From Thermanaerosceptrum fracticalcis (lineage in GTDB: Bacteria > Bacillota > Peptococcia > DRI-13), in NCBI RefSeq assembly GCF_000746025.2, contig NZ_CP045798.1, positions 1,598,501-1,662,500 of the forward strand: DNA of 64,000 bases. The letters are read 5' to 3'. The notes beneath the pieces are model-generated. The model was not told where the DNA came from, made no database searches, and worked only from the letters and a program-made list of their open reading frames with translations. A program made the translations under genes and the position numbers. Position 1 is the stretch's first letter. Each line of letters begins with the position of its first letter. This document shows positions 20,952 through 41,012 of this stretch, piece after piece.

Positions 20952-21140
20952 CTATTTTATCTCAGTATACAACCTGCCACCCTTACCAATTTCTTCTTTT
21001 TCAAATTCGTTGATAAATATAGTAACTTTCTCTGGTTCAACATTGATAGCCTTTACCACAGCTTCCGTTATAGATTCCACCATAATTTTTTTTTGCTCTG
21101 TGGTTTTTCCTTTAAGCATATTAACATGGATTACAGGCAC
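20952..21140 (-). CDS. 4-oxalocrotonate tautomerase family protein
   Basis: A 62-residue protein of the 4-oxalocrotonate tautomerase family, which forms small oligomers and uses the amino-terminal proline as general base. Pro follows directly after the start codon (GTG at 21140, giving MPVIHVNML), so the catalytic residue is present. The family's KVTIFINEF and C-terminal glycine-rich turn are visible. It is the last gene of the long minus-strand catabolic cluster, 39 nt after the preceding gene. It could isomerise an unsaturated keto or enol intermediate; the substrate is not predictable. Confidence 0.85.
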   Translation of the reverse strand: MPVIHVNMLKGKTTEQKKIMVESITEAVVKAINVEPEKVTIFINEFEKEEIGKGGRLYTEIK

Positions 21141-21179
21141 CTATTCCTGCCTCCTTAATTCTATTTTTGTCTGACTGAC

Positions 21180-21821
21180 TTAAGCACTATGATCTTCCGC
21201 ACGTACATATTTCTTTAATAACTCTTCAGCTCGTTCAGTATTAAAAATCCCACATACACAAGGTTGAGCCATTAATATAGCTGCCTCTTTTATACTCTTT
21301 TTCCCACGCCGCACATCTTCAATCAGTTTAACAACCAAGTGCTGTGATATCATTCCATGACCACACATTGTAACAAACTCAAGTACTTCCTCTGCCGGTA
21401 ACAAATCTGTTCTCCCAAAAATGCCAAGGGAGTAGTTAATTGAGTGAGGTTTAATTCCTAACTGTTTTGCAATATCCAATACTTCTTCATTTAAACCACT
21501 TACTGTTACAGAAAGGCCAAAGTCCTCTTCTTTAATACGTCTGACAACTTCTAATATCTTCTCTTTACTTGAAAAAGCACAACGTACCCTTGGTGTTTCC
21601 GGCATACTGGCTTTTATTTCTTCTACCGTTACTCCTGTATAAATGGTTCCAGTTTCATAAGAACCGAGATTGATGGGACCTACTTCTGTGATAATGTCTA
21701 AAATTCTGCGCAGTTTAGGACCAGCATCCTGGTGATTAATTCCCACTGCAGGTGTCACTAATATTACGAAATCATTTTTTAAGGATTCCACACAGCCACG
21801 CCGGTGAAGAGAATGAGTCAT
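21180..21821 (-). CDS. unknown protein of the AOR/glycyl-radical cluster
   Basis: A 213-residue protein I do not recognise. It has no signal peptide or membrane segment. The first ~100 residues look like an alpha/beta fold. The C-terminal ~70 residues hold TMCGHGMISQHLV and a PCVCGIFN motif, giving three cysteines and two histidines that could bind a metal or cluster. The gene starts at ATG 21821 behind AAAGGAGGAATAG and lies 3 nt after the Fe-S protein gene upstream, so the two are probably co-translated. Its position suggests a dedicated role in the cluster's pathway. Confidence 0.75.
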   Translation of the reverse strand: MTHSLHRRGCVESLKNDFVILVTPAVGINHQDAGPKLRRILDIITEVGPINLGSYETGTIYTGVTVEEIKASMPETPRVRCAFSSKEKILEVVRRIKEEDFGLSVTVSGLNEEVLDIAKQLGIKPHSINYSLGIFGRTDLLPAEEVLEFVTMCGHGMISQHLVVKLIEDVRRGKKSIKEAAILMAQPCVCGIFNTERAEELLKKYVRAEDHSA

Positions 21822-21824
21822 CTT

Positions 21825-22553
21825 CTATTCCTCCTTTAAAGGTCGTCCTAAGCCTAAATTGATTTTATTATTTGGCCTTGGCTGAATACCCAAGCGCTCT
21901 AACTGCGGGAAGGTAGGTAGACTACCGTCTTCGGGGAAGCGCGCAATTAAGTCTAAGGAAAAAACGGTATCAATTTTTTTAGCAACATCCATGAGGGTAA
22001 CCAAAATTTCTTCTAACTGGCTCTCGGGAACAACAAACTCAATGATAGCTGAAACCACTCGAGCTTGTTTTGCTTCTTCCGTAAAGGTTCCCTTAGATAC
22101 ATCCTCCATAAGGTGTGTAAGGGGATTAAGTTCTTCGTAGCTTATCTGATGTTTGGCAAGGGCCATAGTGATTTTTTCAACATCACGATAGCTGGCACCA
22201 ACACTTGGCCGACCCACCTCAATAGCAATTCCTACTTGGCCCCTCTTTACTCGACCGGTTACATCATTGGACTTTACTTCCTCTGTACCCCGTCCTGGTA
22301 CCTTTGTCTCCACGTGGGTGGCCATAGGATCGCTAAAATACTTCCTAATTGATCTGGGGCGTTTGAAAACATCTGGACTTTCATAAAGAGCCTGGCGTGG
22401 ACACTTAACAATACGTTGGCGTCCACAGGTACCGCATTCAAGACAGACTTCCTGGTCTATATAGGCTTTACGATCGCGTATGCTAATGGCCTGTACGGGA
22501 CAATACGGCACACATATGCCACATCCTGAGCATTTTTCATGATCAACTAGCAT
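21825..22553 (-). CDS. 4Fe-4S dicluster protein with a novel C-terminal domain
   Basis: A 242-residue protein. The N-terminal ~55 residues carry two ferredoxin-like cysteine sets (CSGCGICVPYC, then CLECGTCGRQRIVKC), so it should hold two iron-sulfur clusters. The remaining ~185 residues have a central stretch (GQVGIAIEVGRPSVGASYRDV) and a region resembling small-molecule-binding folds, but match no family I can name. It starts at ATG 22553 behind GGAGGATG. It probably passes electrons to or from the AORs or the adjoining unknown protein; that is inference from context. Confidence 0.8.
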   Translation of the reverse strand: MLVDHEKCSGCGICVPYCPVQAISIRDRKAYIDQEVCLECGTCGRQRIVKCPRQALYESPDVFKRPRSIRKYFSDPMATHVETKVPGRGTEEVKSNDVTGRVKRGQVGIAIEVGRPSVGASYRDVEKITMALAKHQISYEELNPLTHLMEDVSKGTFTEEAKQARVVSAIIEFVVPESQLEEILVTLMDVAKKIDTVFSLDLIARFPEDGSLPTFPQLERLGIQPRPNNKINLGLGRPLKEE

Positions 22554-22638
22554 GTTTCATCCTCCTTGTCTACTGTCTCTTACTTTTGAAGTATATCTAA
22601 TTTTCTTAATGTTTCGGCCAGGGGGGAAACCTCTCAGG

Positions 22639-22932
22639 TTAACCCCCGACGCCGATATACATCAGAAGTACTTCATCGCCCTGCTGCAATGGAATGTCTT
22701 CGCGGGTCACAACGCCATTCACCACAATCATCAGATCCGGAGCTAATTCCCCTTGATTCTTTAGTCGGGAACGAAGCAGTGGATAATCCTCAATCAGAGT
22801 GTCCAGTAGATGATAGGTCGTAAGTGGTTCCTTGATGGTAACGGTGATGGAATGGTCTTTGATTGGTAACCCATCTTCCAACCCACCGAGAAAGCGTACC
22901 TTTACATCGACATTCTTATTTTTTTCTTGCAA
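22639..22932 (-). CDS. MoaD/ThiS-like ubiquitin-fold protein (copy 1)
   Basis: A 97-residue beta-grasp protein ending in Gly-Gly (VLLMYIGVGG), the hallmark of MoaD-type sulfur carriers whose C-terminus is thiocarboxylated for molybdopterin synthesis. The ILMYxGxGG-like tail and the EDIPLQQGDEV segment match the family. It follows the AOR gene at 22948-24807 by 15 nt, and a paralogue at 28124-28402 accompanies the second AOR. It may be dedicated to making tungstopterin for the AOR. The start is a TTG at 22932 with AGGGAG upstream. Confidence 0.85.
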   Translation of the reverse strand: MQEKNKNVDVKVRFLGGLEDGLPIKDHSITVTIKEPLTTYHLLDTLIEDYPLLRSRLKNQGELAPDLMIVVNGVVTREDIPLQQGDEVLLMYIGVGG

Positions 22933-22947
22933 GCAGCTCCCTACTTC

Positions 22948-24807
22948 CTATTTGAGGTTTTGTACAATCTCGTCAAGACCCAGGGCTTGCACGGTTTCTT
23001 TCTTGGGAATACCGTTTTGGTCCCAGCCTACCAGTGCGTAGTACTTATCCAGCATCCCGTCCAGCTCTTCCCTGGGAGTATACATACCTTGGGAAGGTCC
23101 TTCGGGAATGGGCTCGGTCATAAAACGCTCGGGCAGTACGTCGTCTTTACGGCTTAAGCCTTCTCTTACGTTGAAGCATCTTTCCAGGTTCCAGATCCGA
23201 TCAGCTACCTCTTGCAGTTCTGCCAGGTCAAAACCAAAGCCGCAGACGGCGTTGATGATGTTTAGGTGCTTTTCGGTGAGGCCTACCCGACCGATACTTC
23301 CTTCGAGCATGGCACAGTAGGTGAAGGTATCCCGGATTACGGTGGTGGCAGTGACGTCTTTGACCAGCTTCTCTTTGTCCTCGACGGTTTTGCGGTCAAA
23401 GGCTCCGCCTCTTTCAGGAAGGTGTCTCATGTCTTGGTGACTGCCACCCCGGGGGCTGACGGAGTAGCCGAGGGACATCCCTTTGTAGCCTCTCGCGCTG
23501 TGGCCGGCTAATTCCAGGCCTTTGATGTTGATGGCAAAGGCGTTGGAACCCCGCCCGATCTTTTGGCTCATTTTGCGAGTACCCTGGCTGATAAAGTCAC
23601 CGATGCCTTCTCGGACAGCGGTCTTTTCTAAGAGGGTGATCATGGCTTCGGCATTGCCAAATTCGGCTTTGATGCCATCGAGTTCCTCTTGGCTTATCAG
23701 CCCTTTTTCATAGCATTCCATGATGAAGGCGATAGATACGCCGGCTGATATGGTATCCATCCCGTATTCGTTACAGATATGGTTTGCTTTGGCTACTACG
23801 CCGAGATCTCCGATCCCACAGAGCGAGCCGAAGCTGTAGACAGTTTCGTATTGGGGTTTGACGGTTTTGAGTCCGTCGTATTGGCCGCCTTTGACTTCGC
23901 AGTAGTGGGCGCAACGCAGCGGACAGTTGAAGCAACTAAAGTTCTTTTTGAACAACTTTTCGGCCATCTGTAAGTGGGATATGGAGTCGGCTTCTTCAAA
24001 GGTCTCTTTCTGCCAGTTCCTGGTGCCCAGGATACCGGTGGCATTGTTGGTCTGGGTGGCCGGGGTTGTGCCATATTTGGAGAGGGTTTCACCCAAGGCT
24101 TTGTCGGTTCTGATTTGCTGATAGATATCTTCAACGAGGGCACGGGTCTTTTCCTGGTCAGCTACATCTATACAGGCAGCTGTACCCTTGACGGCTACGG
24201 CTTTAAGGTTTTTGGCGCCCATGACGGCACCGAGTCCGCCCCGGCCGGCGGCATGTGTTCCGTCGACCATGATGCAGGCGTAGTTGACTTTCTTTTCGCC
24301 GCTGGGTCCAATGACGGCGATGCGTACGAGTTCGTCACCGATCTCTTTTTTGATGGCTTCCCGGGTGTCGGTGGTGGTTCTGCCCCAGTGTTGCGCGGCA
24401 TCCCGCAGTTCGGCTTTGCCGTTATCGATCCAGAGATAGACGGGTTTGGAGGAGCTGCCTTCTATGATAAGTCCGTCATAACCGGCAAATTTTAGTTCTG
24501 CCCCAAAGTGGCCGCCGGCATAACTGTCCATGAAGGCACCGGTTAGGGGTGATTTGCCGAAGATACCTATTTTCGGGGCGCAGGGGAAGATGGTTCCGGT
24601 CAAAGGACCGGTGAAGAAGACGAGCTTGCTTTTTTCACCGAGCGGGTCATAGCCCTGTTCTGTCTCTTTGTAAAGGTAATAGGCTCCCAGCCCGTTACAG
24701 CCTACGTATTTTCTCAGGACTTCATCGCTAAGCTTCTCTTCTGTGATCGCCCCAGTGGTAAGATTCACTCTGAGGATTTTACCGCAATACGCGCTATACT
24801 TGCTCAT
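22948..24807 (-). CDS. aldehyde:ferredoxin oxidoreductase, tungsten-dependent (AOR 1)
   Basis: A 619-residue enzyme of the AOR family, which oxidises aldehydes to carboxylic acids (or the reverse) with ferredoxin, using a tungsten bis-pterin and one [4Fe-4S] cluster. The cluster cysteines CxxCxxxC lie near residue 295 (CFNCPLRC). N-terminal GPLTG, KSPLTGAFMDSYAGG and the ARGYKGMSLGYSVSPRGG pterin-binding block are all present, as is the C-terminal R-x-D-D-x-LP-x-R motif. I chose ATG 24807 with GAGAGG 9 nt upstream. It follows a ferredoxin gene by 18 nt. Confidence 0.93.
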   Translation of the reverse strand: MSKYSAYCGKILRVNLTTGAITEEKLSDEVLRKYVGCNGLGAYYLYKETEQGYDPLGEKSKLVFFTGPLTGTIFPCAPKIGIFGKSPLTGAFMDSYAGGHFGAELKFAGYDGLIIEGSSSKPVYLWIDNGKAELRDAAQHWGRTTTDTREAIKKEIGDELVRIAVIGPSGEKKVNYACIMVDGTHAAGRGGLGAVMGAKNLKAVAVKGTAACIDVADQEKTRALVEDIYQQIRTDKALGETLSKYGTTPATQTNNATGILGTRNWQKETFEEADSISHLQMAEKLFKKNFSCFNCPLRCAHYCEVKGGQYDGLKTVKPQYETVYSFGSLCGIGDLGVVAKANHICNEYGMDTISAGVSIAFIMECYEKGLISQEELDGIKAEFGNAEAMITLLEKTAVREGIGDFISQGTRKMSQKIGRGSNAFAINIKGLELAGHSARGYKGMSLGYSVSPRGGSHQDMRHLPERGGAFDRKTVEDKEKLVKDVTATTVIRDTFTYCAMLEGSIGRVGLTEKHLNIINAVCGFGFDLAELQEVADRIWNLERCFNVREGLSRKDDVLPERFMTEPIPEGPSQGMYTPREELDGMLDKYYALVGWDQNGIPKKETVQALGLDEIVQNLK

Positions 24808-24825
24808 ATGTCTCAACCTCTCAAT

Positions 24826-25278
24826 TTATTTCTGTAAAAAACGTTTTTTCTTGATGAGGACTTCGTCCGGTATTTCTTCATAGGTCAGTGCTTTGGCTGT
24901 GCAGTGTTTGACACAGGTAGGGTCTCCACCGCAGAGGTTGCATTTGATGGGCATGCCTGTCTCTGGATGCAGGGTGATGGCTCCGTAGGAGCAGGCATCG
25001 GCACAGTTGCCGCAGGCCACGCAATTCTCTTTGATGAATACTACCATCTGTGCTTCGGGGTCATACTTTAAGGCGTCAGCAGGACATGCTGCTCCACAGG
25101 CCGGTTCCTGACACTGCCGACATACTACGGGTATGGGTTTTTCCTCCAGGGTCCCCGGGTTGATGATGGTGATTCTTGATAACCCCGGATTCACCACATT
25201 TTCATGGGAATCGGAGCAAAAGACTTCACATGCCCGGCAACCTGCACATTTGGTTGCGTCTACAATTATTCTCTTCAT
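24826..25278 (-). CDS. 4Fe-4S ferredoxin-type electron carrier for AOR
   Basis: A 150-residue iron-sulfur protein with four cysteine groups of the DMSO-reductase beta-subunit type (CAGCRACEVFC, CRQCQEPACGAAC, CVACGNCADAC, CNLCGGDPTCVKHC), enough for up to four [4Fe-4S] clusters. Such proteins commonly sit beside AOR genes and carry their electrons. It starts at ATG 25278 directly after the dehydrogenase gene (28-nt gap) and is followed by AOR 1. Cytosolic location is inferred from the absence of a signal peptide. Confidence 0.9.
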   Translation of the reverse strand: MKRIIVDATKCAGCRACEVFCSDSHENVVNPGLSRITIINPGTLEEKPIPVVCRQCQEPACGAACPADALKYDPEAQMVVFIKENCVACGNCADACSYGAITLHPETGMPIKCNLCGGDPTCVKHCTAKALTYEEIPDEVLIKKKRFLQK

Positions 25279-25306
25279 CTCATAACCCCCTGTTTTATTG
25301 CCGTTC

Positions 25307-26209
25307 TTATTTCTTGTCTTCTGTTGCCCGCACTTCTACGCCGGCTAATTTTTCCTGGAGGGTGATTATGCCGGAAATATCCATTCCTCCACACCCAAGA
25401 AGCTGAGCCGTCCGATAAGCCTGCTCGGCCAAACCTCCTAAGGGTAAAACCATTTGGTTTTCTTTGGCCATATTGATAACTAATCCCAAGTCTTTAGCAA
25501 TTAAGTCTATAGCAAAACCTGGTTTGAAGTTACCTTTTGCTATGAAATTGGGATAACGGGTTTGCAAGGCATAGCTATTGCCTGCACTTTCACTCAATAT
25601 TTCGAACATAGTATCAGGATTAATCCCTGCCTTAGTTCCCAGTACCAGGGCTTCACCTACCGCAGCCACATTAATGCCAAATAATAATTGATTAATTAAT
25701 TTTACTGCTTGACCAGCACCCACTTTACCTACGTGGTAAATTTTCTTACCTAACGCTTGCAAAATAGGTAAGCACTTTTCAAACACTTCCCTTTCTCCGC
25801 CGACAATTATGGTTAAGGTGGCTGCCTTAGCGCCTGCCTCTCCGCCGCTCACAGGTGCATCCAACACCTGCACACCTTGCGTTTCAGCGGCCTTAGCCAG
25901 TTTTCGACTGGTCTCTGGCGTAACAGTACTCATTTCCACAAGCACTGTACCTGCTTTTGCTCCTGCCAGAACACCTTCTGGGCCTAGTACTACTTGCTCC
26001 ACGATTTGTGGGGTTGGTAAAGATGTTAGAATTATCTCAGAGTCTTGTGCAACTTCCATTGGACTGACTGCACTTTTAGCTCCTAAGGCCTGTAATTCAG
26101 CTACTGCTTTAGAGTTAACATCATAAACTATAAGCTGATAGCCGGCCTTAATTAAATTTGTAGCCATTGGCTTACCCATTGTACCAATGCCAATAAAGCC
26201 AATCTTCAC
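25307..26209 (-). CDS. 3-hydroxyisobutyrate dehydrogenase-family oxidoreductase
   Basis: A 300-residue beta-hydroxyacid dehydrogenase, of the family that includes 3-hydroxyisobutyrate dehydrogenase and tartronate semialdehyde reductase (GarR/GlxR). It has the N-terminal dinucleotide-binding GFIGIGTMGKPMA motif, the substrate-site DAPVSGGEAGA and the catalytic-lysine segment GAGQAVKLINQLL. The length is exactly typical. Which hydroxyacid it uses cannot be read from these motifs. It lies between the two AOR genes, so it probably interconverts a semialdehyde and a hydroxyacid in the cluster's pathway. Confidence 0.88.
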   Translation of the reverse strand: MKIGFIGIGTMGKPMATNLIKAGYQLIVYDVNSKAVAELQALGAKSAVSPMEVAQDSEIILTSLPTPQIVEQVVLGPEGVLAGAKAGTVLVEMSTVTPETSRKLAKAAETQGVQVLDAPVSGGEAGAKAATLTIIVGGEREVFEKCLPILQALGKKIYHVGKVGAGQAVKLINQLLFGINVAAVGEALVLGTKAGINPDTMFEILSESAGNSYALQTRYPNFIAKGNFKPGFAIDLIAKDLGLVINMAKENQMVLPLGGLAEQAYRTAQLLGCGGMDISGIITLQEKLAGVEVRATEDKK

Positions 26210-26257
26210 GATTTCACTCTCCTCAAAAGATATCGTTTGAATCCTAATTTATTGCAA

Positions 26258-28102
26258 TTAAATATTGACTAGATCTAATTCTTCCAATTTAGATTGTGTA
26301 GGCCTACCCAACTCATCCCACCCGCGATAGAGATAATATTCAGACAACATCTCTCCCAAAGGAGGTAAATTATCAGCCGCTCCCCCTGAACCTCTCTTCA
26401 AAGATAAGAGGCGAGGTGGAAGCGTATCATCTTTTCTGGTAATGCCACATCTAACGTTATACAATCTTTTTAAGTTAAACAGCCTTTCTCCAGTTAATAG
26501 AAAATCTGCTACAGTCATTTCCCACCCGGTAATAAGGTTAAGCCACTCTACCATATGGGTCAAAGTAACACCACCAACAACAGCAAATTTACATATTTTT
26601 AGTGAATCACACATTGACATAATGTTCTGCAAGTTAGCAGTAAGTTCTCCTTTTCCTCTTACAGCAAAGCGGTCGAAAGGTTTGCAATAATTTAATTCAG
26701 GAATAGTCGCTGCAATCTCGTAGGGATGGGTAAAACCCTGTAAATGACAGGCTCCGCGATTAGATGTAGCATAGGCTACTGCTAAGCTGTTAAACGCACG
26801 AGGGTCATGGGCAGGAGGTTCTAAACCTTTCACATGTAAAGCAAATTCCTCGGCAACTCCTCCTATTTGGGCGGCAGCCCTTTTAACTCCTTCCGCCAGG
26901 ATTTTACCAAGTTTCTTCCTCTGCCCGATTTGGTGAATCATATCGATTACTGCTCCTGCATCACCCCATTGAAGACTAACCCCACCAGTATCTTCTTCTG
27001 TAATGAGACCATGTTCAAAGCATTCCATAGCAAAAGCAATAACTCCGCCTGTAGAAATAGTATCCATACCATATCTGTTACATAATTCGTTAGCCATAGC
27101 AACAGCTTCTAAGTCATCTACTAAGCATAAAGCACCTAGCAAAGCAAGTGTTTCATATTCCGGACCCGCACCATCAACATTTCCATAGGCACTATTTTTA
27201 ATTTCCACCTTCCTGCCGCAACCAATCATGCAGGATGAACAATAAAAACGTCCCGTCAGAATAGTTTCAGCCATGCGCTGTCCGGAAATCCTTTCCGACC
27301 CTTCTACCCAAGACCCTTCACGCCAATTTTTAATGGGTAAATCACCGAGCTTCTCAGAGCTAATTAATGCACCGGAAGTTCCGAATTCCTTTCGAGTTTT
27401 CGTATTTGCCACCAATGTGGGCAGAAACTTTGTAATTGATTTTTTTAGTTCTTCCGGTCGGGCTACTGAAGTATTTTGGCTACCACATACGGCAATCGCC
27501 TTTAGTTTCTTAGCCCCCATTACTGCACCTACACCGCTCCTGCCGGCAGCCCTTCCGTCCTTACCGTCACTCATAATAGAAGCGAACTTAACCAAGTTTT
27601 CACCAGCAGGACCTATAGATGTAATTGCTGCCTTGTGATTCGTTTCACTTCTTATAATGTCTTCAATTTCATAAGTATCCTTACCCCAAATATGCTCTGC
27701 ATTTCTAAACTCCACTGTACTATCTGTAATCCATAGATATACTGGATTATTTGAGGCTCCCACAATAACCAGACCATCTATTCCTGCTTTTTTTAAAGCG
27801 GTCCCCCAGGTACCACCAATATCTGATTCAGCCCAAATACCGGTGAGAGGAGATTTGGTAACGACCGCATGTCTTCCTGCGGTTGGCACTCTTGTTCCGG
27901 TAAAAGGTCCCGTCATAAAAATAAGGGTATTCTCAGGCCCCAATGGGTCCGTTTCCGCCCCAGTTGTACTAAACAATATTTTTGCCCCAAGTCCGCTGCC
28001 TCCAATGTATTTATAAGCATCGTCGGCGGATAAATCCACTTTGTTAACAGTCTTCTCTGATAAGTCAATCCAAAGTATTTTTCCCTGATACCCGTAAAGC
28101 AT
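26258..28102 (-). CDS. aldehyde:ferredoxin oxidoreductase, tungsten-dependent (AOR 2)
   Basis: A 614-residue AOR-family enzyme, a paralogue of AOR 1 and clearly divergent from it. The cluster cysteines are C288, C291 and C295 (CSSCMIGC). GPFTG, KSPLTGIWAESDIGG and the C-terminal R-K-D-D-T-LPPR motif are intact. The pterin block reads DPRAFNSLAVAYATSNRGA. The start is ATG 28102. It directly follows the second MoaD-like gene (21 nt). Two AORs in one cluster suggest two aldehyde substrates, or one physiological and one scavenging enzyme. Confidence 0.92.
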   Translation of the reverse strand: MLYGYQGKILWIDLSEKTVNKVDLSADDAYKYIGGSGLGAKILFSTTGAETDPLGPENTLIFMTGPFTGTRVPTAGRHAVVTKSPLTGIWAESDIGGTWGTALKKAGIDGLVIVGASNNPVYLWITDSTVEFRNAEHIWGKDTYEIEDIIRSETNHKAAITSIGPAGENLVKFASIMSDGKDGRAAGRSGVGAVMGAKKLKAIAVCGSQNTSVARPEELKKSITKFLPTLVANTKTRKEFGTSGALISSEKLGDLPIKNWREGSWVEGSERISGQRMAETILTGRFYCSSCMIGCGRKVEIKNSAYGNVDGAGPEYETLALLGALCLVDDLEAVAMANELCNRYGMDTISTGGVIAFAMECFEHGLITEEDTGGVSLQWGDAGAVIDMIHQIGQRKKLGKILAEGVKRAAAQIGGVAEEFALHVKGLEPPAHDPRAFNSLAVAYATSNRGACHLQGFTHPYEIAATIPELNYCKPFDRFAVRGKGELTANLQNIMSMCDSLKICKFAVVGGVTLTHMVEWLNLITGWEMTVADFLLTGERLFNLKRLYNVRCGITRKDDTLPPRLLSLKRGSGGAADNLPPLGEMLSEYYLYRGWDELGRPTQSKLEELDLVNI

Positions 28103-28123
28103 TACTTCACCTCCTCTTTTAGA

Positions 28124-28402
28124 TTAGCCACCGATTAGAGGAGGGAGAAAAAACAGATGATCTTTATCTTTAATTATTTCTCCCTCTTTCACTGGACTAT
28201 TATTCTTGATTATTAATATTTGCTGCTGCCATGGATACTGTAGCAGTATGTGCTTATGTAGACTTTGTACATCAGTCAATAATACTTGAAGTAAATCCTC
28301 GATCGTTGTTGCATTACCATCTATCATTACTCTTTTCACATTAAGCCCAGAGCTTTCACGGTAAGGCGGAAAAAACTCAATTAAAACTTCGACCTCCCTC
28401 AC
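28124..28402 (-). CDS. MoaD/ThiS-like ubiquitin-fold protein (copy 2)
   Basis: A 92-residue beta-grasp protein ending in Gly-Gly (FFLPPLIGG), as required for thiocarboxylate formation in MoaD-type carriers. It shares family spacing but little close sequence with copy 1. It starts at GTG 28402, whose nearest ribosome binding sequence (GGGGAG) is immediately adjacent, so the exact start is uncertain. It is coupled to AOR 2 downstream. Upstream of it the cluster is interrupted by the IS4-family element. Confidence 0.82.
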   Translation of the reverse strand: MREVEVLIEFFPPYRESSGLNVKRVMIDGNATTIEDLLQVLLTDVQSLHKHILLQYPWQQQILIIKNNSPVKEGEIIKDKDHLFFLPPLIGG

Positions 28403-28494
28403 CTCCCCTATCCGGCATTATTTTAATCTATACTATAATTTGTTTAAGTATTACTAAATTAATTCTATTTAAAATTATAATTTCCTTCTACCTT

Positions 28495-28501
28495 TTGTAA
28501 A
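28495..28501. repeat. left 7-bp target duplication of the IS element
   Basis: TTGTAAA, repeated exactly at 30131-30137 on the other side of the element. Confidence 0.65.
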
Positions 28502-30137: not shown

Positions 30138-30205
30138 AAATACTTAAAAATTTTACAAAGATGGCTTCACATAGGAAAAACCTATGTGAAGCCAATAATA
30201 GGCGA

Positions 30206-31231
30206 TTATTTAGTATCAAGAATCCTTTGAATCAAATCTGTAACTTTAAGCTTTTCCCCATACTCCTTGTATACGGGCTGTACAGCGGCCTTAAATGCTT
30301 CCTTGTCCGGATTCATTTCTACTTGCATTCCTAATCCAGGTAGTTCCTTTATAGCCTTATCTTCCAATTCTTTGATATAATTCCTTTCATAGGTGGCAGT
30401 TTCGCGTGCTGCTTCTACTACAATTTTCTGTAGATCTGCAGGGAGTTTATCATAAGTTTTCTTACTCATCATAATTACTGCCGGTGCATAAACATGCCCT
30501 GTCATAGAGATATATTTCTGAACCTCATATATTTTTTGGGTATAAATAGTCTGCACTGGATTCTCCTGTCCATCAACAGTTCCCTGTTGAAGGGCCGTAT
30601 ACACCTCAGTCCAAGCCATGGGAGTCGGGTCCGCACCTAACTGTTTCCAGAAGGATACGTGCAGAGGAATTTCCTGTACACGAATTTTCATACCCTTAAC
30701 ATCTTCGGGTTTCTTAATTATTTTCTTCGAGTTAGTTACATGTCTAAATCCATTCTCCCAGAAGGCTAATCCAACAATGCCTTTTGCTTCAAAATCTTTC
30801 AATACCTCACTACCAATAGGCCCATCTAAAACTTTATAAGCATGCTCTGCATCCCTAAATATAAAAGGCAGGTCAAACACTTGAAGCCTGGGTACAAACC
30901 CAGTAACCGTAGCTGTTCCGCTAACAGACATGTCTACAGTACCTAATTGTAACCCCTCAGCTAATGTTCTATCGTTACCCAATTGTGCACTAGGATATAC
31001 TTCAATTTTTAGCTTTCCGTTACTCTTTGTCTCAACCTTTTTAGCAAACTCTACAGCCCCCTTATGGAAAGGACTGCTTTCATTTAAAACGTGGCCTAGT
31101 TTTAAAACTATTGGACCTTGTTGATTGTTCTTTGGTGCTTCTGCCGGCTTATTACCGCCACAACCAACAATTAAAAGAGAAATGCTTAGTAGTAAGATCA
31201 TCATCCATGTTAACCCTTTTTTTCCCTTCAT
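30206..31231 (-). CDS. dctP: TRAP transporter substrate-binding protein (DctP, second system)
   Basis: A 341-residue lipoprotein of the DctP family. The signal peptide ends in SLLIVGC, so the mature protein should be tethered outside the membrane. LKLGHVLNESSPFHKGA, KIEVYPSAQLGNDRTL and YTALQQGTVDGQENP match the family. I chose ATG 31231 because GGGAGG lies 8-9 nt upstream. A longer frame starting at GTG 31300 also has a G-rich sequence before it but would put 23 residues ahead of the signal peptide. It is separated from its DctQ and DctM partners by three enzyme genes, and belongs to the glycyl-radical cluster. Confidence 0.93.
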   Translation of the reverse strand: MKGKKGLTWMMILLLSISLLIVGCGGNKPAEAPKNNQQGPIVLKLGHVLNESSPFHKGAVEFAKKVETKSNGKLKIEVYPSAQLGNDRTLAEGLQLGTVDMSVSGTATVTGFVPRLQVFDLPFIFRDAEHAYKVLDGPIGSEVLKDFEAKGIVGLAFWENGFRHVTNSKKIIKKPEDVKGMKIRVQEIPLHVSFWKQLGADPTPMAWTEVYTALQQGTVDGQENPVQTIYTQKIYEVQKYISMTGHVYAPAVIMMSKKTYDKLPADLQKIVVEAARETATYERNYIKELEDKAIKELPGLGMQVEMNPDKEAFKAAVQPVYKEYGEKLKVTDLIQRILDTK

Positions 31232-31338
31232 TACCATTGCCTCCCATTGAATAATTTTTATTAACGTTGGCGATTCCTTATTTTTTAGAAGCATTTTCAC
31301 CCCCCTATACTTTGTAATTATTTAAGCAAAATAATTGT

Positions 31339-32298
31339 TTAGGGTTTTATTATAATCTTAATAATTTCATCGTTATTAACAGCTTCTTCAAAAGCTTCCG
31401 TTATATCAGACAATTTAAATTCAGCACTGATTAAAGGTTCCACATCAATAAGTCCTTGCTGGAACGGACGCATAGCCTTTTCGGTCCAGACCATTCGTTC
31501 GTACTTGGTATGATGAACCAAAGTAGTAGTAATCACTTTAAAACTATTTTGGTGCCAGCGATGCAAATTCAAGGTTACAGGTTGTGTAATCCAACTGTAG
31601 AGAACTAAATGACCGTTATGCTTAAGAATCGTACTGCAAGCGTTGAGGGATTCCTGGGTACCAGCTGCCTCAAAGACTACATCAACACCTTTTCCATCGG
31701 TTAATCCCATAATAGCCTGGTACAAATCTTCTTTTGAAGGATTAATGGTAACATCTGCCCCCATTTTTTCGGCAAGTTTTAACTTACCATCCAAAATGTC
31801 GATAGCAATTACTTTAGTAGCTCCCTTCCTCCGTGCACCTTGTAACATGATCTGCCCGGCAAAACCCATTCCCATAACAGCTACCGTATCTCCTATTTGC
31901 ACCCCAGATTCCAAAACAGAATGCATAGCACAGGCCAGGGGTTCTCCCAGCGAAGCGATTCTCATATCCAACCCTTCAGGCACCGGCTGGAGATTAATGG
32001 GTTTGGTTTTGAAATAATCTGCAAAGGTGCATGAACGGCTAAAAGACATCACCAGATCCCCAACCTGGTATTCATGTACTTTAGATCCTACTGCTTCGAC
32101 TACCCCTCCCCCTTCATGACCAATAAATAAGGGATATTTTTCATTTGGCGGCATTTCGCCACGATAATACATTTTATCTGTACCACAGATTGAGGACTGG
32201 AATGTACGAACAAGAACCTCGTCATCCTCTAAAATTAAATCTTTCTCGACTAAAGCAAGTTTACCAGGTCCTTCGATTTTTAACATTCTGGTTTTCAT
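31339..32298 (-). CDS. zinc-dependent alcohol dehydrogenase (MDR family)
   Basis: A 319-residue medium-chain dehydrogenase similar to threonine/sorbitol dehydrogenases. The catalytic zinc site is CGTD...GHEGGG, and the NAD(P) site is VAVMGMGFAGQIMLQGA. The structural-zinc cysteine loop seen in many relatives is reduced here (FSRSCTFADYF has one Cys), so it may lack that second zinc. I chose ATG 32298 with GGAGG 8 nt upstream. It lies between the activase and DctP, so it probably oxidises an alcohol made or used in the pathway. Confidence 0.88.
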   Translation of the reverse strand: MKTRMLKIEGPGKLALVEKDLILEDDEVLVRTFQSSICGTDKMYYRGEMPPNEKYPLFIGHEGGGVVEAVGSKVHEYQVGDLVMSFSRSCTFADYFKTKPINLQPVPEGLDMRIASLGEPLACAMHSVLESGVQIGDTVAVMGMGFAGQIMLQGARRKGATKVIAIDILDGKLKLAEKMGADVTINPSKEDLYQAIMGLTDGKGVDVVFEAAGTQESLNACSTILKHNGHLVLYSWITQPVTLNLHRWHQNSFKVITTTLVHHTKYERMVWTEKAMRPFQQGLIDVEPLISAEFKLSDITEAFEEAVNNDEIIKIIIKP

Positions 32299-32331
32299 AA
32301 CACTGTCCTCCCTCAAATATCGTTCTTGTTA

Positions 32332-33246
32332 CTAGTTACCACCTACCTTTACGTTAACACCCCTTTTCTCCAACATTTTCAGTATGCTCTCCATCCTCTC
32401 TTGTTCCGGCGGCATTACTGTGAGTTTATATTCCCTTCCTAGTTGCCGGTACTTTTGCTCACCAAATCTATGGTAGGGAAGCAAGTGCATTTCAGTGACA
32501 CCTATCTCTTTTACAAATTCCACAGTGTTTACTAAGTTTTCTTCACTGTCATTAAAACCAGGGATAACCGGGAGCCTCACTGTTAAATTAGCCCCTTTGG
32601 CAGCTAAACGACGGGCATTGTCAAGTATAAGTGAATTTTCTACTCCTGTATGCTGTTTATGAATATCACAATCAAGATGCTTTATATCGTATAAAAACAA
32701 ATCCGTATAAGGTAAACAAGCCTCTATTATCTCATAAGAAGTAAACCCAGATGTTTCTACTGCTGTATTTAACCCCCTCTCCTTACAAAGTTTCAATAAA
32801 GAAAAGGTAAATTTCGCTTGTGTAAAGGGTTCTCCTCCGGAAAGTGTTACACCACCGCCTGAATGCTGATAAAAAATGTCATCTCCTTCAATATCTTGAA
32901 GCACGTCGTATGCAGTCTTTGTTGTCCCCATTATCTGCAGAGCTTCGGCAAAGCAATGTTCCACACAAATACCGCATACTGTACATCTGCTACGGTTAAT
33001 AACATTACCGATCGGCGTACTCGTAATGGCTTTTTCCGGGCAAATAGCTATACATTTGCCACATCCGATACATCTATTTGGGACTACTATAATTTCGGGG
33101 TGACCCAGCTGGGACTCGGGGTTCGCACACCATTCACACCTAAGAGGGCATCCTTTTAAAAAGACTAATGTACGGATTCCTGGACCATCATGGATAGAGT
33201 ACCTTTGGATATTAAAAATGAGACCGGTTGTTCTCTCTATATCCAT
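32332..33246 (-). CDS. glycyl-radical enzyme activating enzyme (radical SAM)
   Basis: A 304-residue radical SAM activase. The SAM cluster motif is C33-x3-C37-x2-C40 (GCPLRCEWC). Between it and the barrel it carries an inserted ferredoxin domain with two cysteine sets (CIGCGKCIAICPEKA and CTVCGICVEHCFAEA), typical of activases for glycerol-dehydratase-like and sulfonate-lyase-like enzymes and absent from the short pyruvate formate-lyase activases. It installs the glycyl radical on the enzyme encoded directly upstream (20-nt gap), acting anaerobically in the cytosol. Confidence 0.94.
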   Translation of the reverse strand: MDIERTTGLIFNIQRYSIHDGPGIRTLVFLKGCPLRCEWCANPESQLGHPEIIVVPNRCIGCGKCIAICPEKAITSTPIGNVINRSRCTVCGICVEHCFAEALQIMGTTKTAYDVLQDIEGDDIFYQHSGGGVTLSGGEPFTQAKFTFSLLKLCKERGLNTAVETSGFTSYEIIEACLPYTDLFLYDIKHLDCDIHKQHTGVENSLILDNARRLAAKGANLTVRLPVIPGFNDSEENLVNTVEFVKEIGVTEMHLLPYHRFGEQKYRQLGREYKLTVMPPEQERMESILKMLEKRGVNVKVGGN

Positions 33247-33266
33247 TAGTTATAAATCTCCCCTCG

Positions 33267-35639
33267 TTAAAGCATGTGCTCAGTCCTTTCGATAATGTCA
33301 TCTTGCAGCTTCTTATCCAAATCTACAAACATAGCACTATAGCCAGCCACCCTCACCATCAAATCGCGGTTATTTTCAGGATCTAATTGCGCCATCCTGA
33401 GAGTATCTGCCGACACAACATTAAACTGGATATGCATTAATTTTAAAGAACAAAAACTACGCAATAGAGAAATTAGTTTTTTCATGTCGTTTTCACTCTT
33501 GAGAGCAGAAGGATGAAATTTTATGTTTAATAATGTTCCATTTGTTGCGGCAGCATGTTCCACTCGACTTACAGAACGTAAAACAGCAGTTGGTCCTTTA
33601 ACATCACAACCGTGTACCGGTGAAATCCCGTCAGCTAAGGGAATACCCTTCTTCCTGCCATTGGGAAGGGCCCCCACAACGCCACCTAATGGCACATTTG
33701 ATGCTACTGGATAAAGGCCGGGGCGATATTTACCACCGCGCGGATTATTATACTGGGCTACTTCCCGACAATAAAAGAGTCCTACCTCCCGAGCCAGCAG
33801 GTCTGGTGTAGTTTCCGCATTACCATATTTAGGTGCTTTATTACGCAATAATAAACGCACATCCTCCTGACCCTCGAAATCATTACTAAGGGCATCAATT
33901 AGTTGATCCATTGATAACAGTTTCTTTTCAAACACGAGTGTTTTAATTGCAGTCAGTGAATCAGCCACATCTGCCAGCCCAATACCCTGAGGTCCGGTAA
34001 AATTAAACCTGGCTCCACCTTCGGCTAAATCCTGACCTTTAGCAATACAATCATCCATAAATGATGAAACGAAGGGAGTGGGTATCAATTCCGCATGCAC
34101 TTTGTCCCATGTATTAAGCATCGTAACCATGTGTTTAATAAAATAAGAAACCTGCTTTTTAAACGCCGACATCACCTGATCAAAACTTGTAAAGGTTTTT
34201 GCATCACCTGTTTCTAACCCAATGCGCTTTCCACTAAGCTGGCAAACTCCATTATGTAGAGCTAATTCGAGACATTTACCTAAATTAAACATCGCAGCAT
34301 TTGTCCAACCATTTGTGTTATCGGACGGAGTAGGTTCCACGCAACCAACAATCGCATAGTTTCTAGCATCCTTTAAAGGTATACCATCACTCATTAAAGA
34401 GGGAATAATTATTTCATCGTTAAAAATAGCTGGTTTACCGCCACCCGTTTTAATCAATTCAACTACTTTTAGAAGAAAACGTTCAGGTGTTCCACTGTGG
34501 AGTCTAATGGAGAGGGCAGGTTGAGGCAACATGATATGACGGTCTGCTTCAAGACACAGGTAGGAAAGTTCATTAGTAACATCTTCCCCATCTTCATTTA
34601 TCCCACCCAAAATGAGATTTTCGGACATGGTTACTCCGCCAAAATATTTAGCGGCAGGCGGAATATCACTGAGTTTAATAACCTCATTCATCTTGATCCA
34701 TACACAGTCTAGTAACTCTTGAGCTTCTTCTAGCGTTAACTTTCCTTCCGCTAAGTCTTTTGAAAAATAGGGATAGAGATACTGATCAAAGCGACCTGGA
34801 GATTCGGCCAATCCGTCTGTCTCAATATGAATTATCAGTTGTAGGAACCAAAAGGCCTGTAAAGCCTCACGGAAGGTACGGGCCGGGTTTTCCGGCACCC
34901 ATCTGCATATTTCGGCAATATCCTTTAGCTCCTTCTTTCTGCTTTCATCATCCTCCGTAGACGCCAACTGTTCTGCTAAATCTGCATAACGTTGGGCAAA
35001 ATGTGATACAGCATCACATATAATCAGAACTGCTCGATAAAACTGCAATTTACTGATATTTTCAGGCATCGAAGGATCTAATGACTCCATCTTTTCTTGA
35101 ACCTCAGTTCGAATACCCCCAAAGCCTCTTTTCAAAATAGCTGCATAATTAGGAACCAAATGACCGACACAATTGCGTAAAAACAACGTAGGAGAAATAA
35201 CCGGATATGTTAGTTCGAAAATCTCCCTTGTTTCAGCAGGAAGAAGCTTCGGTGCAACTTCCAAAACAGTTTTTTCTTTCCAATAAGTTAATATATCTCG
35301 TAGAACCTTTTTTTCTTCCTCTGTTACTAAAAACCTGTTTACTGTTCTTGTAGCAAAACTGTCCAATTGCTCCGCTACCCAACGTGCACCGGTCTCAGGA
35401 AAAACCGGGGCCTTATTAGGTGCACTTGCTTGATTGCCTACGATTAGTTCTCCGTCCCCGATATAGATAGACATTTTTTCCAGAATTCGACTAAGGGCCT
35501 TGGCCCGGCGTATTACCATAGGCTCTCCCTCAGTCTCGCGATAACTTTCAGTAATAAGTACAGCCCGTTCTACACAAATAGCTTGAGGAAAGGAACGCAA
35601 CCTTTTTCGCAAACTTTTTACTCTTAAGGTAGGTTCCAT
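33267..35639 (-). CDS. glycyl radical enzyme, pyruvate formate-lyase family, substrate unknown
   Basis: A 790-residue enzyme. The catalytic thiyl Cys433 and Glu435 lie in VGCVEP, and the radical Gly766 in RVAGYSAMFVD near the C-terminus. His160 in VGHLVPNY matches a conserved active-site His. Compared with my memory of glycerol dehydratase (His281, Ser282, His446, Asp447), this enzyme has Leu277, Ala278, Thr446 and Asn447, so the diol-binding set is lost. A glycerol or propanediol dehydratase call is therefore unlikely. TRAP genes on both sides suggest that an acid or sulfonate is the imported substrate. The exact reaction (dehydration, C-N, C-S or C-C cleavage) cannot be decided. Confidence 0.9.
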   Translation of the reverse strand: MEPTLRVKSLRKRLRSFPQAICVERAVLITESYRETEGEPMVIRRAKALSRILEKMSIYIGDGELIVGNQASAPNKAPVFPETGARWVAEQLDSFATRTVNRFLVTEEEKKVLRDILTYWKEKTVLEVAPKLLPAETREIFELTYPVISPTLFLRNCVGHLVPNYAAILKRGFGGIRTEVQEKMESLDPSMPENISKLQFYRAVLIICDAVSHFAQRYADLAEQLASTEDDESRKKELKDIAEICRWVPENPARTFREALQAFWFLQLIIHIETDGLAESPGRFDQYLYPYFSKDLAEGKLTLEEAQELLDCVWIKMNEVIKLSDIPPAAKYFGGVTMSENLILGGINEDGEDVTNELSYLCLEADRHIMLPQPALSIRLHSGTPERFLLKVVELIKTGGGKPAIFNDEIIIPSLMSDGIPLKDARNYAIVGCVEPTPSDNTNGWTNAAMFNLGKCLELALHNGVCQLSGKRIGLETGDAKTFTSFDQVMSAFKKQVSYFIKHMVTMLNTWDKVHAELIPTPFVSSFMDDCIAKGQDLAEGGARFNFTGPQGIGLADVADSLTAIKTLVFEKKLLSMDQLIDALSNDFEGQEDVRLLLRNKAPKYGNAETTPDLLAREVGLFYCREVAQYNNPRGGKYRPGLYPVASNVPLGGVVGALPNGRKKGIPLADGISPVHGCDVKGPTAVLRSVSRVEHAAATNGTLLNIKFHPSALKSENDMKKLISLLRSFCSLKLMHIQFNVVSADTLRMAQLDPENNRDLMVRVAGYSAMFVDLDKKLQDDIIERTEHML

Positions 35640-35684
35640 ATAATATCATCCTCCTTACATTAAAATCACATTTTTTACCTTTGA

Positions 35685-36965
35685 TTATTTCCCCATAACC
35701 TTCGGTAAATAAAGAGAAATTTCCGGAATATAGGTAATAAGCATTAAAGCAACAATCGCAGCAGCTAAAAACGGAATTAAGGATTTGGCAACTTCCTCAA
35801 TTCGTAACTTTGAAATGCCAGAAGCAACATATAAATTGACTCCTAGCGGCGGAGTTACAAGGCCTAGACAAAGATTAGTTACCATAATAGCACCAAAATG
35901 AATGGGATCTACCCCCATCTTTACCATTATGGGCATCATAAGGGGAGCAAGGATGACTATAGCAGCGTTTAATTCTATAAAACAACCGGTAATTAGCAAC
36001 AAAATATTCAAAAATAATAGTAATATATACTTATTTGGTGCCAGCTGAATTATAAAGTTGGCTATTTGTGTTGGAATTTGAGCATTAGACATAATCCAGC
36101 TAAAAGCTGATGCCGTAGCTATTACATACATTACCATGGCCGATGTCACCGCAGATTGTACAAAAATTTTAGGTAAGTCAGACAATTTTAATTCGCGATA
36201 AACAAAGAAACCGACAATTAGTCCATAAATTGCTGATACTACCGCAGCTTCAGTCGGTGTAAATACTCCACCGTAGATCCCGCCCAGTATAATAACAGGC
36301 ATCATTAGAGCCCATGAGGCTTGTTTTGCATTGTTTAATACATCTTTTATACTTGCTTTATTCCCAGTCCCAACATATCCGTTTTTCTTGGAAATAAAAT
36401 ATACCATTATCATTAAAGATAAACCCACTAAGACACCAGGTAAGGCCCCTGACAAAAATAGGTCACCAATTGATTCACCTGTAGCCACACCAAAAGTGAT
36501 AAATAAAATACTAGGAGGAATAAGTGGTCCTAATGCTCCTGCCGTCGCTTGCAGAGCAGTTGCAAAACTACGGTTGTAATTGCTCCTCTCCATAGCAGGA
36601 ATCATAATACCTCCTATAGCTGCGGTAGTAGCAGGACCTGAGCCTGATATCGCGGCGAAAAACATACTTGTTAATACTGTGACTTGTCCTAAACCGCCAG
36701 GCAGCGAACCAACCAATGAACTTGCTAAGTTTATTAACCGACGGGAAATCCCACCACGCTCCATCAATGCTCCTGCCACAATGAAGTATGGAATAGCCAT
36801 CATCGGGAAAGAGTCAACAGCGGCATACATTCTCTGAGCAACGACGGCCAACGGGACGTTAGTTGCAATAGCTAGTGCTAAAAGCGATGACAGGCCAATA
36901 CTGATGGCAATCGGGATATCTGCAATTAAAAAAAGCGCAAATAGAGAAAATAGAAGAATCCCCAT
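35685..36965 (-). CDS. dctM: TRAP transporter large permease subunit (DctM, second system)
   Basis: A 426-residue DctM-family permease with about 12 membrane segments. The FFAAISGSGPATTAAIGGIM block, GGIYGGVFTPTEAAVVSA and the C-terminal VTPPLGVNLYVASG are present. It is similar in layout to the permease at 3464-4738 but clearly distinct in sequence. It starts at ATG 36965 behind AGGAGGTTC and lies 12 nt after its DctQ partner. It is followed by the glycyl radical enzyme gene. Confidence 0.93.
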   Translation of the reverse strand: MGILLFSLFALFLIADIPIAISIGLSSLLALAIATNVPLAVVAQRMYAAVDSFPMMAIPYFIVAGALMERGGISRRLINLASSLVGSLPGGLGQVTVLTSMFFAAISGSGPATTAAIGGIMIPAMERSNYNRSFATALQATAGALGPLIPPSILFITFGVATGESIGDLFLSGALPGVLVGLSLMIMVYFISKKNGYVGTGNKASIKDVLNNAKQASWALMMPVIILGGIYGGVFTPTEAAVVSAIYGLIVGFFVYRELKLSDLPKIFVQSAVTSAMVMYVIATASAFSWIMSNAQIPTQIANFIIQLAPNKYILLLFLNILLLITGCFIELNAAIVILAPLMMPIMVKMGVDPIHFGAIMVTNLCLGLVTPPLGVNLYVASGISKLRIEEVAKSLIPFLAAAIVALMLITYIPEISLYLPKVMGK

Positions 36966-36977
36966 GAATTGAACCTC

Positions 36978-37481
36978 CTAACAATTTTTTATCTCCATTG
37001 CGGAATTTTGTCTATTTCGAATAATAACACTAAAAAGATTTTGTATGAAACGAATTGCCATCATTAAACTTCCCACCACCAATCCTAGGTAAGGAATCCA
37101 CATAGGTAATTCCATGGCAGTCGAAATCTGATTGGTTTCAAATTGGACTTTAACCAGTTGTAATCCATAATATGTTATGGCTAGACAGAACCCTATACTT
37201 AATAAAATACCCATAACACCAACTCCACGGCGAATAGGCTTTGGTAACTTTTCTACTACTACCGAAACGCTTACATGAGCTTTTTCCCTTACTGCTATAC
37301 TTGCGGCAAGAAATGTAACCCACTCAAACACAAAACGAAGTAGTTCTTCCGACCAGGGTAACGATGACTTAAAAACGAACCTAGCAGCGACTTGCATAAA
37401 TCCTACAACTAGTGCTATCGCCATAAGTATACCTATTATTTTCTCTTCTAATTTGGCGACTAAACCTTTTCGTAAGTCCAT
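36978..37481 (-). CDS. dctQ: TRAP transporter small permease subunit (DctQ, second system)
   Basis: A 167-residue four-helix membrane protein with the DctQ stretch PWSEELLRFVFEWVTFLAASIAVREKAHV. I chose ATG 37481, which has GGGGGAGG 5 nt upstream; the longer frame from 37499 runs across that ribosome binding site and is unlikely. It lies between the regulator and DctM, at the head of the transport and enzyme genes. Confidence 0.9.
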   Translation of the reverse strand: MDLRKGLVAKLEEKIIGILMAIALVVGFMQVAARFVFKSSLPWSEELLRFVFEWVTFLAASIAVREKAHVSVSVVVEKLPKPIRRGVGVMGILLSIGFCLAITYYGLQLVKVQFETNQISTAMELPMWIPYLGLVVGSLMMAIRFIQNLFSVIIRNRQNSAMEIKNC

Positions 37482-37555
37482 TTTTCCTCCCCCTAACAAT
37501 ATTCTTATTTAGCGAAATTAAGTAAATATCACCTCCTGATATTAATCTTTTTTCT

Positions 37556-38098
37556 TTAACTAAAGGTTGGTGGAGTAACTACCCATATACAGATACACTT
37601 TTCGGTACCGGGGTTTCTATACAAATGTGGTTGGTTAGCATCAAAGTAAATACTGTCCCCTTCTTGTAACACATAAACCTCATTACCAATGCAAACTTCT
37701 AGAACTCCTTGCAGAATAATTGCGAACTCTTCTCCTTCATGACCATCTACTTCTCCGGATGAAGCATTAGGTTCAACCATCTTTAAGATAGGTTCCATCT
37801 TCCGATTCATGGCGGGTGCCAAAAGTTCGTAAACAATTTTTGAACTACCGATAAGGAGTTTATTTCTTTCGTCTTTTCTTACAACAACTTTTTTCTCGGG
37901 AACTTTTTCAAAAAACTCTTTCAGTTTAATTCCTAATACCTCAGCAATCTTTTTTAATGAAGCTATTGAAGGATCGGTAATATTTCTTTCTACCTGACTT
38001 AAAAAACCTACTGATAGACCAGTATTATCTGCAATGTTTTTTAATGTTAGACCTCGTTCCTCTCGTAATTGCTTGATTCTCTTCCCAATATCTACCAT
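37556..38098 (-). CDS. XRE-cupin transcriptional regulator
   Basis: A 180-residue regulator. The N-terminal ~65 residues are a Cro/C1-type helix-turn-helix (RIKQLREERGLTLKNIADNTGLSVGFLSQVER). The C-terminal ~70 residues are a cupin barrel (EGDSIYFDANQPHLYRNP) that normally binds a small effector. Such proteins usually control catabolic clusters. I chose ATG 38098 with GGAGGAG upstream. It is the first gene of the minus-strand cluster, 75 nt before dctQ, and is likely its local regulator. Confidence 0.9.
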   Translation of the reverse strand: MVDIGKRIKQLREERGLTLKNIADNTGLSVGFLSQVERNITDPSIASLKKIAEVLGIKLKEFFEKVPEKKVVVRKDERNKLLIGSSKIVYELLAPAMNRKMEPILKMVEPNASSGEVDGHEGEEFAIILQGVLEVCIGNEVYVLQEGDSIYFDANQPHLYRNPGTEKCICIWVVTPPTFS

Positions 38099-41001: not shown

Positions 41002-41012
41002 TACCGCAACAA

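Follow-up and report, generated by a model that had tools for sequence, protein, structure and literature searches.

The gene cluster described here occupies positions 20952-38098 of the minus strand in a 64,000-nucleotide stretch of Thermanaerosceptrum fracticalcis DNA (contig NZ_CP045798.1, positions 1,598,501 to 1,662,500; hereafter, the window), part of a 3.8-Mb single-contig genome. It combines a glycyl radical enzyme (GRE), a tripartite ATP-independent periplasmic (TRAP) transporter and two aldehyde:ferredoxin oxidoreductases (AORs), and several described systems resemble it in part. The B12-independent glycerol dehydratases (GD) and 1,2-propanediol dehydratases (PD) (1r8w, 5i2a, 9rco) share with the window GRE the fold family, the catalytic Cys, Glu, His and Gly, and an activase; unlike them, the window GRE has replaced contact residues, falls in a separate clade and is accompanied by a TRAP transporter instead of a facilitator or microcompartment. 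The isethionate sulfo-lyase (IseG/IslA) clusters (PMC6453916) likewise unite a GRE, an activase and a TRAP transporter for a small anion and produce an aldehyde, but the window has neither the sulfonate-binding Arg/Gln/Arg nor a link to sulfite reductase, and AORs replace acetaldehyde dehydrogenase. HypD, trans-4-hydroxyproline dehydratase (PMC7077986), is also a GRE dehydratase acting on a carboxylate-bearing substrate, with equivalents of His160 and Glu436; however, its catalytic Asp278 is Ala278 in the window GRE, which scores 683 bits with the HypD model NF043068 (cut-off 1100), and the cluster has no pyrroline-5-carboxylate reductase. Tungsten AORs with a small Fe-S subunit (1aor; 8c0z, Aromatoleum; 9mqx) resemble the window AORs in their AFOR domains, [4Fe-4S] Cys motif and MoaD-like and Fe-S partners, whereas the window cluster lacks an FAD/NADH subunit and holds two divergent AORs. 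Its 3-hydroxyacid dehydrogenase (HIBDH) belongs to the beta-hydroxyacid dehydrogenase family together with 2-hydroxymethylglutarate dehydrogenase (3cky) and tartronate semialdehyde reductase (1vpd); unlike these, it scores under the equivalog cut-offs and stands in a cluster without nicotinate or glucarate pathway genes.

We find that the GRE represents a new subfamily with clear limits, whose importer is conserved along with it. With a probability of roughly one half, we read the locus as a system for anaerobic catabolism of a small hydroxy-carboxylate, which would be imported by the TRAP transporter, dehydrated by the GRE and oxidized by an AOR that reduces ferredoxin. Such a pathway appears to be undescribed so far: the searched literature yielded no account of the GRE, AOR and TRAP combination or of this system, in line with an earlier note on this DNA, made from its letters alone, which knew of no pathway with the full set.

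Families were called with Pfam and NCBIfam models against their cut-offs. The gene content, positions and single strand given in the earlier note are borne out: all genes that it named are open frames on the minus strand, each above the Pfam cut-off for its family except a 213-aa protein, which matches nothing, and the regulator start that it had placed is the better one. By inspection, radical and metal motifs are intact in the GRE (Cys433 and VRVAGYSAMF), the activase (CPLRCEWC), AOR1 (CSSCMIGC) and AOR2 (CFNCPLRC). In what follows, G and L labels denote relative genomes and loci compared with the window; G000 is the host genome itself, and G001 holds a near-identical metagenome-assembled genome (MAG) of the same genus, whose locus L003 is 99.2% identical to the window locus over 15.5 kb. 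The genes at the GRE end of the cluster are:

37556-38098, minus strand: XRE helix-turn-helix and cupin regulator of PuuR-like architecture (HTH_3 and Cupin_2 above cut-off; ATG at 38098)
36978-37499, minus strand: DctQ, TRAP small permease (PF04290; 58-68% identical beside the GRE in G102, G065 and G209)
35685-36965, minus strand: DctM, TRAP large permease (PF06808; 68-82% identical in G102, G065 and G209)
33267-35639, minus strand: GRE of a new subfamily (PFL-like and Gly_radical; own clade, 100/100; diagnostic L152, L277, A278, N447 and S/T339)
32332-33246, minus strand: radical-SAM GRE activase with a ferredoxin-like insert (TIGR02494, 375 bits, cut-off 174)
31339-32316, minus strand: medium-chain (MDR) alcohol dehydrogenase, 325 aa (ADH_N, ADH_zinc_N; no specific NCBIfam model at cut-off)
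30206-31300, minus strand: DctP, TRAP solute-binding protein (PF03480, TIGR00787; 72-77% identical with the GRE in G065 and G102)

The GRE has the PFL-like and Gly_radical domains, the thiyl Cys, the radical Gly and a cognate radical-SAM activase. It reaches the cut-off of the general subfamily model TIGR01774 and falls below that of every specific NCBIfam GRE model, and among solved structures it is matched best by glycerol dehydratase 1r8w. Relatives were sought in 60 relatives, 399 phylum genomes, 46 class genomes and the family of G065, and close kin were found in G102 (74% identical), G065 (62%), G209 (61%) and G038 (54%), besides the near-identical protein of G001. In a tree of 58 GREs and the structures 1r8w, 5i2a and 9rco, these five lineages form a clade with 100/100 support, apart from the glycerol/propanediol set, which is also supported at 100/100. 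The enzyme is thus distinct from characterized GREs, and the earlier note's concern that it might cluster tightly with one of known substrate does not apply.

Residue comparison draws the same boundary. The catalytic residues Cys433, Glu435, His164 (here His160) and Gly763, in GD numbering, are kept, as is Tyr640, except for Phe in one member. GD residues N156, H281, S282, Y339 and D447, the glycerol contacts in 1r9d, whose identities in 1r8w were checked, are replaced by L152, L277, A278, S/T339 and N447 in all five lineages. These lineages share the signature DGLA[EI]SPGR and CVEP-x8-WTNAAM, in place of which GD-type GREs carry GHSISP and CVEPQ...GWHD; phylum GD-type GREs are 47-51% identical to the window GRE. 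A further, arylacetate-decarboxylase-like GRE (904 aa) is encoded in the host genome at G000:C1:1432708-1435305 (L038 8696-11410) alongside a small protein of 88 aa and an activase, possibly a p-cresol-, toluene- or skatole-forming system.

The importer has the DctP, DctQ and DctM families and the conserved carboxylate Arg/Arg/Asn. The nearest structures to DctP are 4nq8, 4p9k/4pak, 4pdd and 4pdh, members of a solute-binding protein group with pantoate and erythronate as reported ligands; an E...H pair of the window DctP is common to these structures and not to 4p47. According to PMC11668362, proteins of this group were crystallized with pantoate or erythronate, and their ligand contacts are a pair of Arg, an Asn and an acidic residue. 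The window DctP keeps all four of these contacts, which serve carboxylate and hydroxyl binding.

The association of this importer with the GRE is conserved: in each of the five lineages the GRE has an activase and a TRAP transporter next to it. Close relatives of all three TRAP components occur in G102 and G065 (DctP 77 and 72%, DctM 82 and 68% identical), G209 has DctQ and DctM at 60% and 70% identity, and G038 has a different TRAP transporter along with an XRE-cupin protein 60% identical to the window regulator. A scan of genome contigs gave the near-identical MAG only. Of the four further lineages, three have AORs or the Fe-S module beside the GRE, and a rough estimate made lineage by lineage puts the chance of such nearness at 0.08, 0.05, 0.01 and 0.01 in four lineages. 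Most of the window cluster is repeated in G065 (L089 and L073), in the order GRE, activase, DctQ, DctM, DctP, EamA, GntR, HIBDH, fdx242, unk213, FesB, AOR2 and MoaD-like protein. In G038 (L024) an Fe-S aldo/keto reductase, GntR, fdx242, unk213, a second TRAP transporter, HIBDH and FesB come after the GRE unit, up to where the contig ends. In G209 (L125) a gene of the AOR1 clade abuts the activase, and in G154 (L129) a sister GRE adjoins two AORs. Transketolase halves, a PCC-domain protein and two MDR dehydrogenases, all absent from the window, come before the GRE in G065 (L089 4101-8499) and G209 (L125 6586-10984); a sulfoglycolysis-like reading suggested by HIBDH and these transketolase halves was dropped, there being no sulfonate signatures. 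The second half of the window cluster comprises:

28124-28402, minus strand: MoaD/ThiS-like protein 1, moaD1 (PF02597; C-terminal GG)
26258-28102, minus strand: AOR1, aldehyde:ferredoxin oxidoreductase family (AFOR_N, AFOR_C; nearest structures 9mqx, 9g7j and 1aor)
25307-26209, minus strand: HIBDH, 3-hydroxyacid dehydrogenase of the HIBADH/tartronate-semialdehyde reductase family (nearest 3cky)
24826-25278, minus strand: FesB, multi-[4Fe-4S] electron-transfer subunit (Fer4 dicluster domains; 42-61% identical beside AOR2 in G065, G038 and G031)
22948-24816, minus strand: AOR2, aldehyde:ferredoxin oxidoreductase family (AFOR_N, AFOR_C; nearest 1aor)
22639-22932, minus strand: MoaD/ThiS-like protein 2, moaD2 (PF02597; C-terminal GG)
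21825-22553, minus strand: fdx242, a 2[4Fe-4S] ferredoxin domain (Fer4) joined to an uncharacterized domain of ~180 aa with a GRGTEEVKTNDVTGR-type motif
21180-21821, minus strand: unk213, uncharacterized, with invariant MCGH and CxC, normally adjoining fdx242 (no Pfam/NCBIfam family)
20952-21140, minus strand: 4-oxalocrotonate-tautomerase-like protein, Pro1 kept (PF01361, TIGR00013)

Both AORs carry AFOR_N, AFOR_C and the CxxCxxxC cluster motif and are 38% identical to each other; the family named in the earlier note is thus confirmed, and its tungsten type is probable by homology only. The AOR2 clade (seven rows, 100/99) is confined in the tree to loci with the fdx242-unk213 pair. HIBDH scores 276.9 bits with TIGR01692 (cut-off 291.6) and 297.9 with TIGR01505 (cut-off 340.75); its nearest relatives are 2-hydroxymethylglutarate dehydrogenase and tartronate semialdehyde reductase, both acting on HOCH2-CHR-COO(-). 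The tautomerase passes TIGR00013 narrowly (57.9 bits, cut-off 56.9); in place of Arg39 and Phe50 of 4-oxalocrotonate tautomerase it has Thr and Ile. Elsewhere in the host genome, an AOR gene at G000:C1:364588-366417 has one in-frame TAG, the mark of a pseudogene or a sequencing error. A different AOR clade adjoins GD-type GREs in L026 (5567-11935), L128 and L130; L026 also encodes an aquaporin/glycerol facilitator along with a tautomerase, and this set suggests a route from glycerol through 3-hydroxypropionaldehyde to 3-hydroxypropionate via the AOR.

The protein at 21180-21821 is indeed without a recognizable family, as the earlier note had it: no Pfam or NCBIfam family and no solved relative were found, and its AlphaFold model, built without an alignment (pLDDT, the predicted local distance difference test, 64), has no PDB match below an E-value of 0.001. 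Leads near chance were set aside (a McrD-like fold, 0.04; DUF2099, 0.02; LysW-aminoadipate kinase, 1e-4 as the best of 34 members). It contains 17 invariant residues, MCGH and CxC among them, and is present in 26 of the 399 phylum genomes. The alignment of fdx242 (34 members) has 25 invariant columns, with eight invariant Cys and an invariant GRG..E.K.N..T; single genomes hold about ten copies. The pair occurs in L080, L081, L082 and L087 beside prismane- or CODH-like proteins (422-521 aa), a CooF-like protein and an FAD/NAD oxidoreductase, in several of these loci with a TctABC-type importer near, and alcohol dehydrogenases similar to that of the window are found close to it in L082 and L087. 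That the pair keeps company with importers of acids and with Fe-S oxidoreductases suggests a role in redox reactions or in substrate activation.

What we read from the sequences is the gene content, the separate GRE clade, the retention of catalytic residues and replacement of binding residues, the conserved link with TRAP and the recurrence of AOR/Fe-S neighbors; the order of steps, the dehydration, the substrate class and ferredoxin as acceptor are what we infer from them. DctPQM would import the hydroxy-carboxylate, to be sensed by the XRE-cupin protein, and the GRE, switched on by its activase, would abstract the hydrogen of the carbinol carbon and expel water from the adjacent carbon, giving a semialdehyde (oxo-acid). 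AOR1, AOR2 or both, with FesB as the wire, would then oxidize the aldehyde to an acid, dicarboxylic or other, with ferredoxin being reduced. HIBDH and the MDR dehydrogenase may interconvert oxo-acid and hydroxy-acid with NAD(P) for redox balance, and fdx242-unk213 might be an accessory Fe-S module handling the acid or the electrons. Dehydration of HOCH2-C(OH)R-COO(-) would yield OHC-CHR-COO(-), a product that suits both HIBDH and AOR. Since DctP relatives bind pantoate or erythronate, our best guess for the substrate is a 2,3-dihydroxy acid of the glycerate, 2-methylglycerate or erythronate/threonate class. Pantoate itself was rejected on chemistry, as it has no vicinal diol. In the simplest case glycerate would be converted to malonate semialdehyde and then to malonate, though glycerate itself is an improbable substrate; as the Leu/Ala replacements would point to an apolar face, an acid with a branch or a longer chain is equally likely. 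To our knowledge, plain hydroxy-carboxylates are not a described substrate class of the GRE superfamily. The fuller proposal, in which a GRE dehydratase for such acids is joined by tungsten AORs banking ferredoxin and by fdx242-unk213 as an undescribed enzyme beside TRAP, TTT or TAXI importers, is tentative and less likely than not.

Several observations weigh against the proposed hydroxy-carboxylate pathway. G102 has the GRE, activase and TRAP transporter in a genome without fdx242 or the ferredoxin-unknown pair, and its two AORs lie on a separate contig with their own TRAP transporter (L153). HIBDH and/or an AOR accompany fdx242-unk213 with no GRE alongside in G031 (L069), G038 (L154, L155, L156) and G065 (L071, L158), several GRE-free loci of the pair in these genomes carrying TRAP, TTT or TAXI importers; AOR modules with HIBDH and a TRAP transporter also occur without a GRE. 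AOR matches are very numerous in G038 (29) and G001 (15); the host genome has 12, so that some AOR near the GRE is not very improbable. Leu and Ala at polar GD positions suit an apolar part of a substrate, and glycerate is no obvious match. R155 and R639 are no more than candidates for carboxylate binding, and neither aligns with IseG Arg187 or Arg676: R155 is one residue away from the place of Arg187, and R639 was rejected as the counterpart of Arg676, which the alignment sets at G641. The AlphaFold model of the GRE, built without an alignment, has a pLDDT of 36 and gives no usable structure, and the ligands in structures of the DctP group were mostly co-purified (PMC11668362).

The most serious competitor, to which we give about half the credence of the proposed pathway, holds that the cluster is made up of two adjoining but independent operons, a GRE-TRAP dehydration unit whose products are handled elsewhere and an AOR2-HIBDH-fdx-unk unit for a different acid. 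Its evidence lies partly between dctP and moaD1, where the earlier note overlooked an insertion sequence (IS) element and a hairpin and promoter-like site:

30162-30194, minus strand: terminator-like hairpin 3' of dctP (14-pair stem, short T-rich tail; also in L003)
28502-30130, minus strand: IS701/IS4-like insertion element (transposase 28508-30007; DDE_Tnp_1; terminal repeats; target-site duplication)
28474-28501, minus strand: promoter-like site 5' of moaD1, TTTACA-16-TATAAT (11/12 matches; same letters at the L003 empty site)

The hairpin after dctP and the promoter-like site before moaD1 suggest two transcription units: unit A, with the regulator, dctQ, dctM, GRE, activase, alcohol dehydrogenase and dctP; and unit B, with moaD1, AOR1, HIBDH, FesB, AOR2, moaD2, fdx242, unk213 and the tautomerase. 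As such sites are no commoner over the region than in shuffles, the division stays suggestive. The units also differ in G+C (0.37-0.42 in the GRE/TRAP unit, 0.50-0.53 in AOR2/FesB), which varies inside unit B as well. The 1.6-kb IS element, with near-perfect terminal inverted repeats CAGGAGTTATGCAGTT / CAGTAGTTATGCAGTT and a 7-bp target duplication, TTTACAA, is recent and outside the pathway; L003 carries an empty site in its place, and the cluster was therefore contiguous until recently. The AOR2 unit without a GRE in G031 and G038, and the GRE unit without the AOR2 unit in G102, speak for separate operons and lend no support to the view that all genes form one fixed pathway. Against separate operons, both kinds of unit are neighbors again in G065 and, altered, in G038, the activase in G209 has the AOR1-clade gene directly next to it, and two AORs adjoin the sister GRE of G154. 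Of the earlier note's expectation of co-conservation, it stands that the TRAP transporter travels with the GRE and that AORs or the Fe-S module recur nearby; the full set is not fixed. Since the AOR2 module recurs without any GRE, the set is not one fixed operon and looks like a partnership of two modules, a GRE-TRAP core repeatedly joined with AOR/Fe-S modules.

Less probable is that the GRE cleaves a C-S, C-N or ether bond, or decarboxylates its substrate, and so releases an aldehyde for the AOR; the compound taken up would then be a sulfonate, a quaternary amine or an aryl ether acid. GRE eliminases have a mechanism in common, changes run through the whole binding pocket, and TRAP systems carry sulfonates too (PMC6453916). 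However, the sulfonate ligands of IseG, Arg187, Gln191 and Arg676 (PMC6453916), are replaced by N156, H160 and G641 at aligned places, which disfavors the sulfonates that the earlier note had listed among possible substrates, and the cluster has no genes for handling sulfite. Scores with HpsG (720 bits, cut-off 1000), HpfG (699, cut-off 1000), the choline TMA-lyase CutC (TIGR04394, 602, cut-off 1050) and the indoleacetate/hydroxyphenylacetate decarboxylase models are far below cut-off. His at position 160, where IseG has Gln191, is common to the C-O-cleaving GD, PD and HypD types, from which, with the conserved Glu, we infer that the GRE probably eliminates water; of "split or dehydrated" in the earlier note, dehydration is thus preferred and splitting not favored. 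It is very improbable that the GRE is still a dehydratase of glycerol or propanediol whose pocket is atypical and whose aldehyde is oxidized by an AOR, as seems likely for the GD-type GREs of L026: the best structure match is 1r8w and GD-type GRE-AOR pairs occur in the phylum, but all five checked contact residues differ in all five lineages, the clades are separate at 100/100, and a TRAP importer stands in place of the glycerol facilitator.

Two neighboring systems lie in the window. On the plus strand (38373-43270), divergent from the GRE cluster, stand genes for a LytS/LytT-type two-component system and, after them, a CstA-family transporter gene. On the minus strand (48626-53020) BadF/BcrAD ATPase and DUF2229/HGD-D proteins make up a 2-hydroxyacyl-CoA-dehydratase-like system.

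The new GRE subfamily has a clean residue signature, specific and testable, and its co-conserved binding protein DctP offers a handle for finding the substrate. The fdx242-unk213 pair is a widespread uncharacterized pair tied to carboxylate import and to Fe-S or AOR enzymes. If the proposed pathway is true, part of the redox energy would be banked as low-potential ferredoxin, a plausible route by which anaerobes may gain ferredoxin from small hydroxy-acids.

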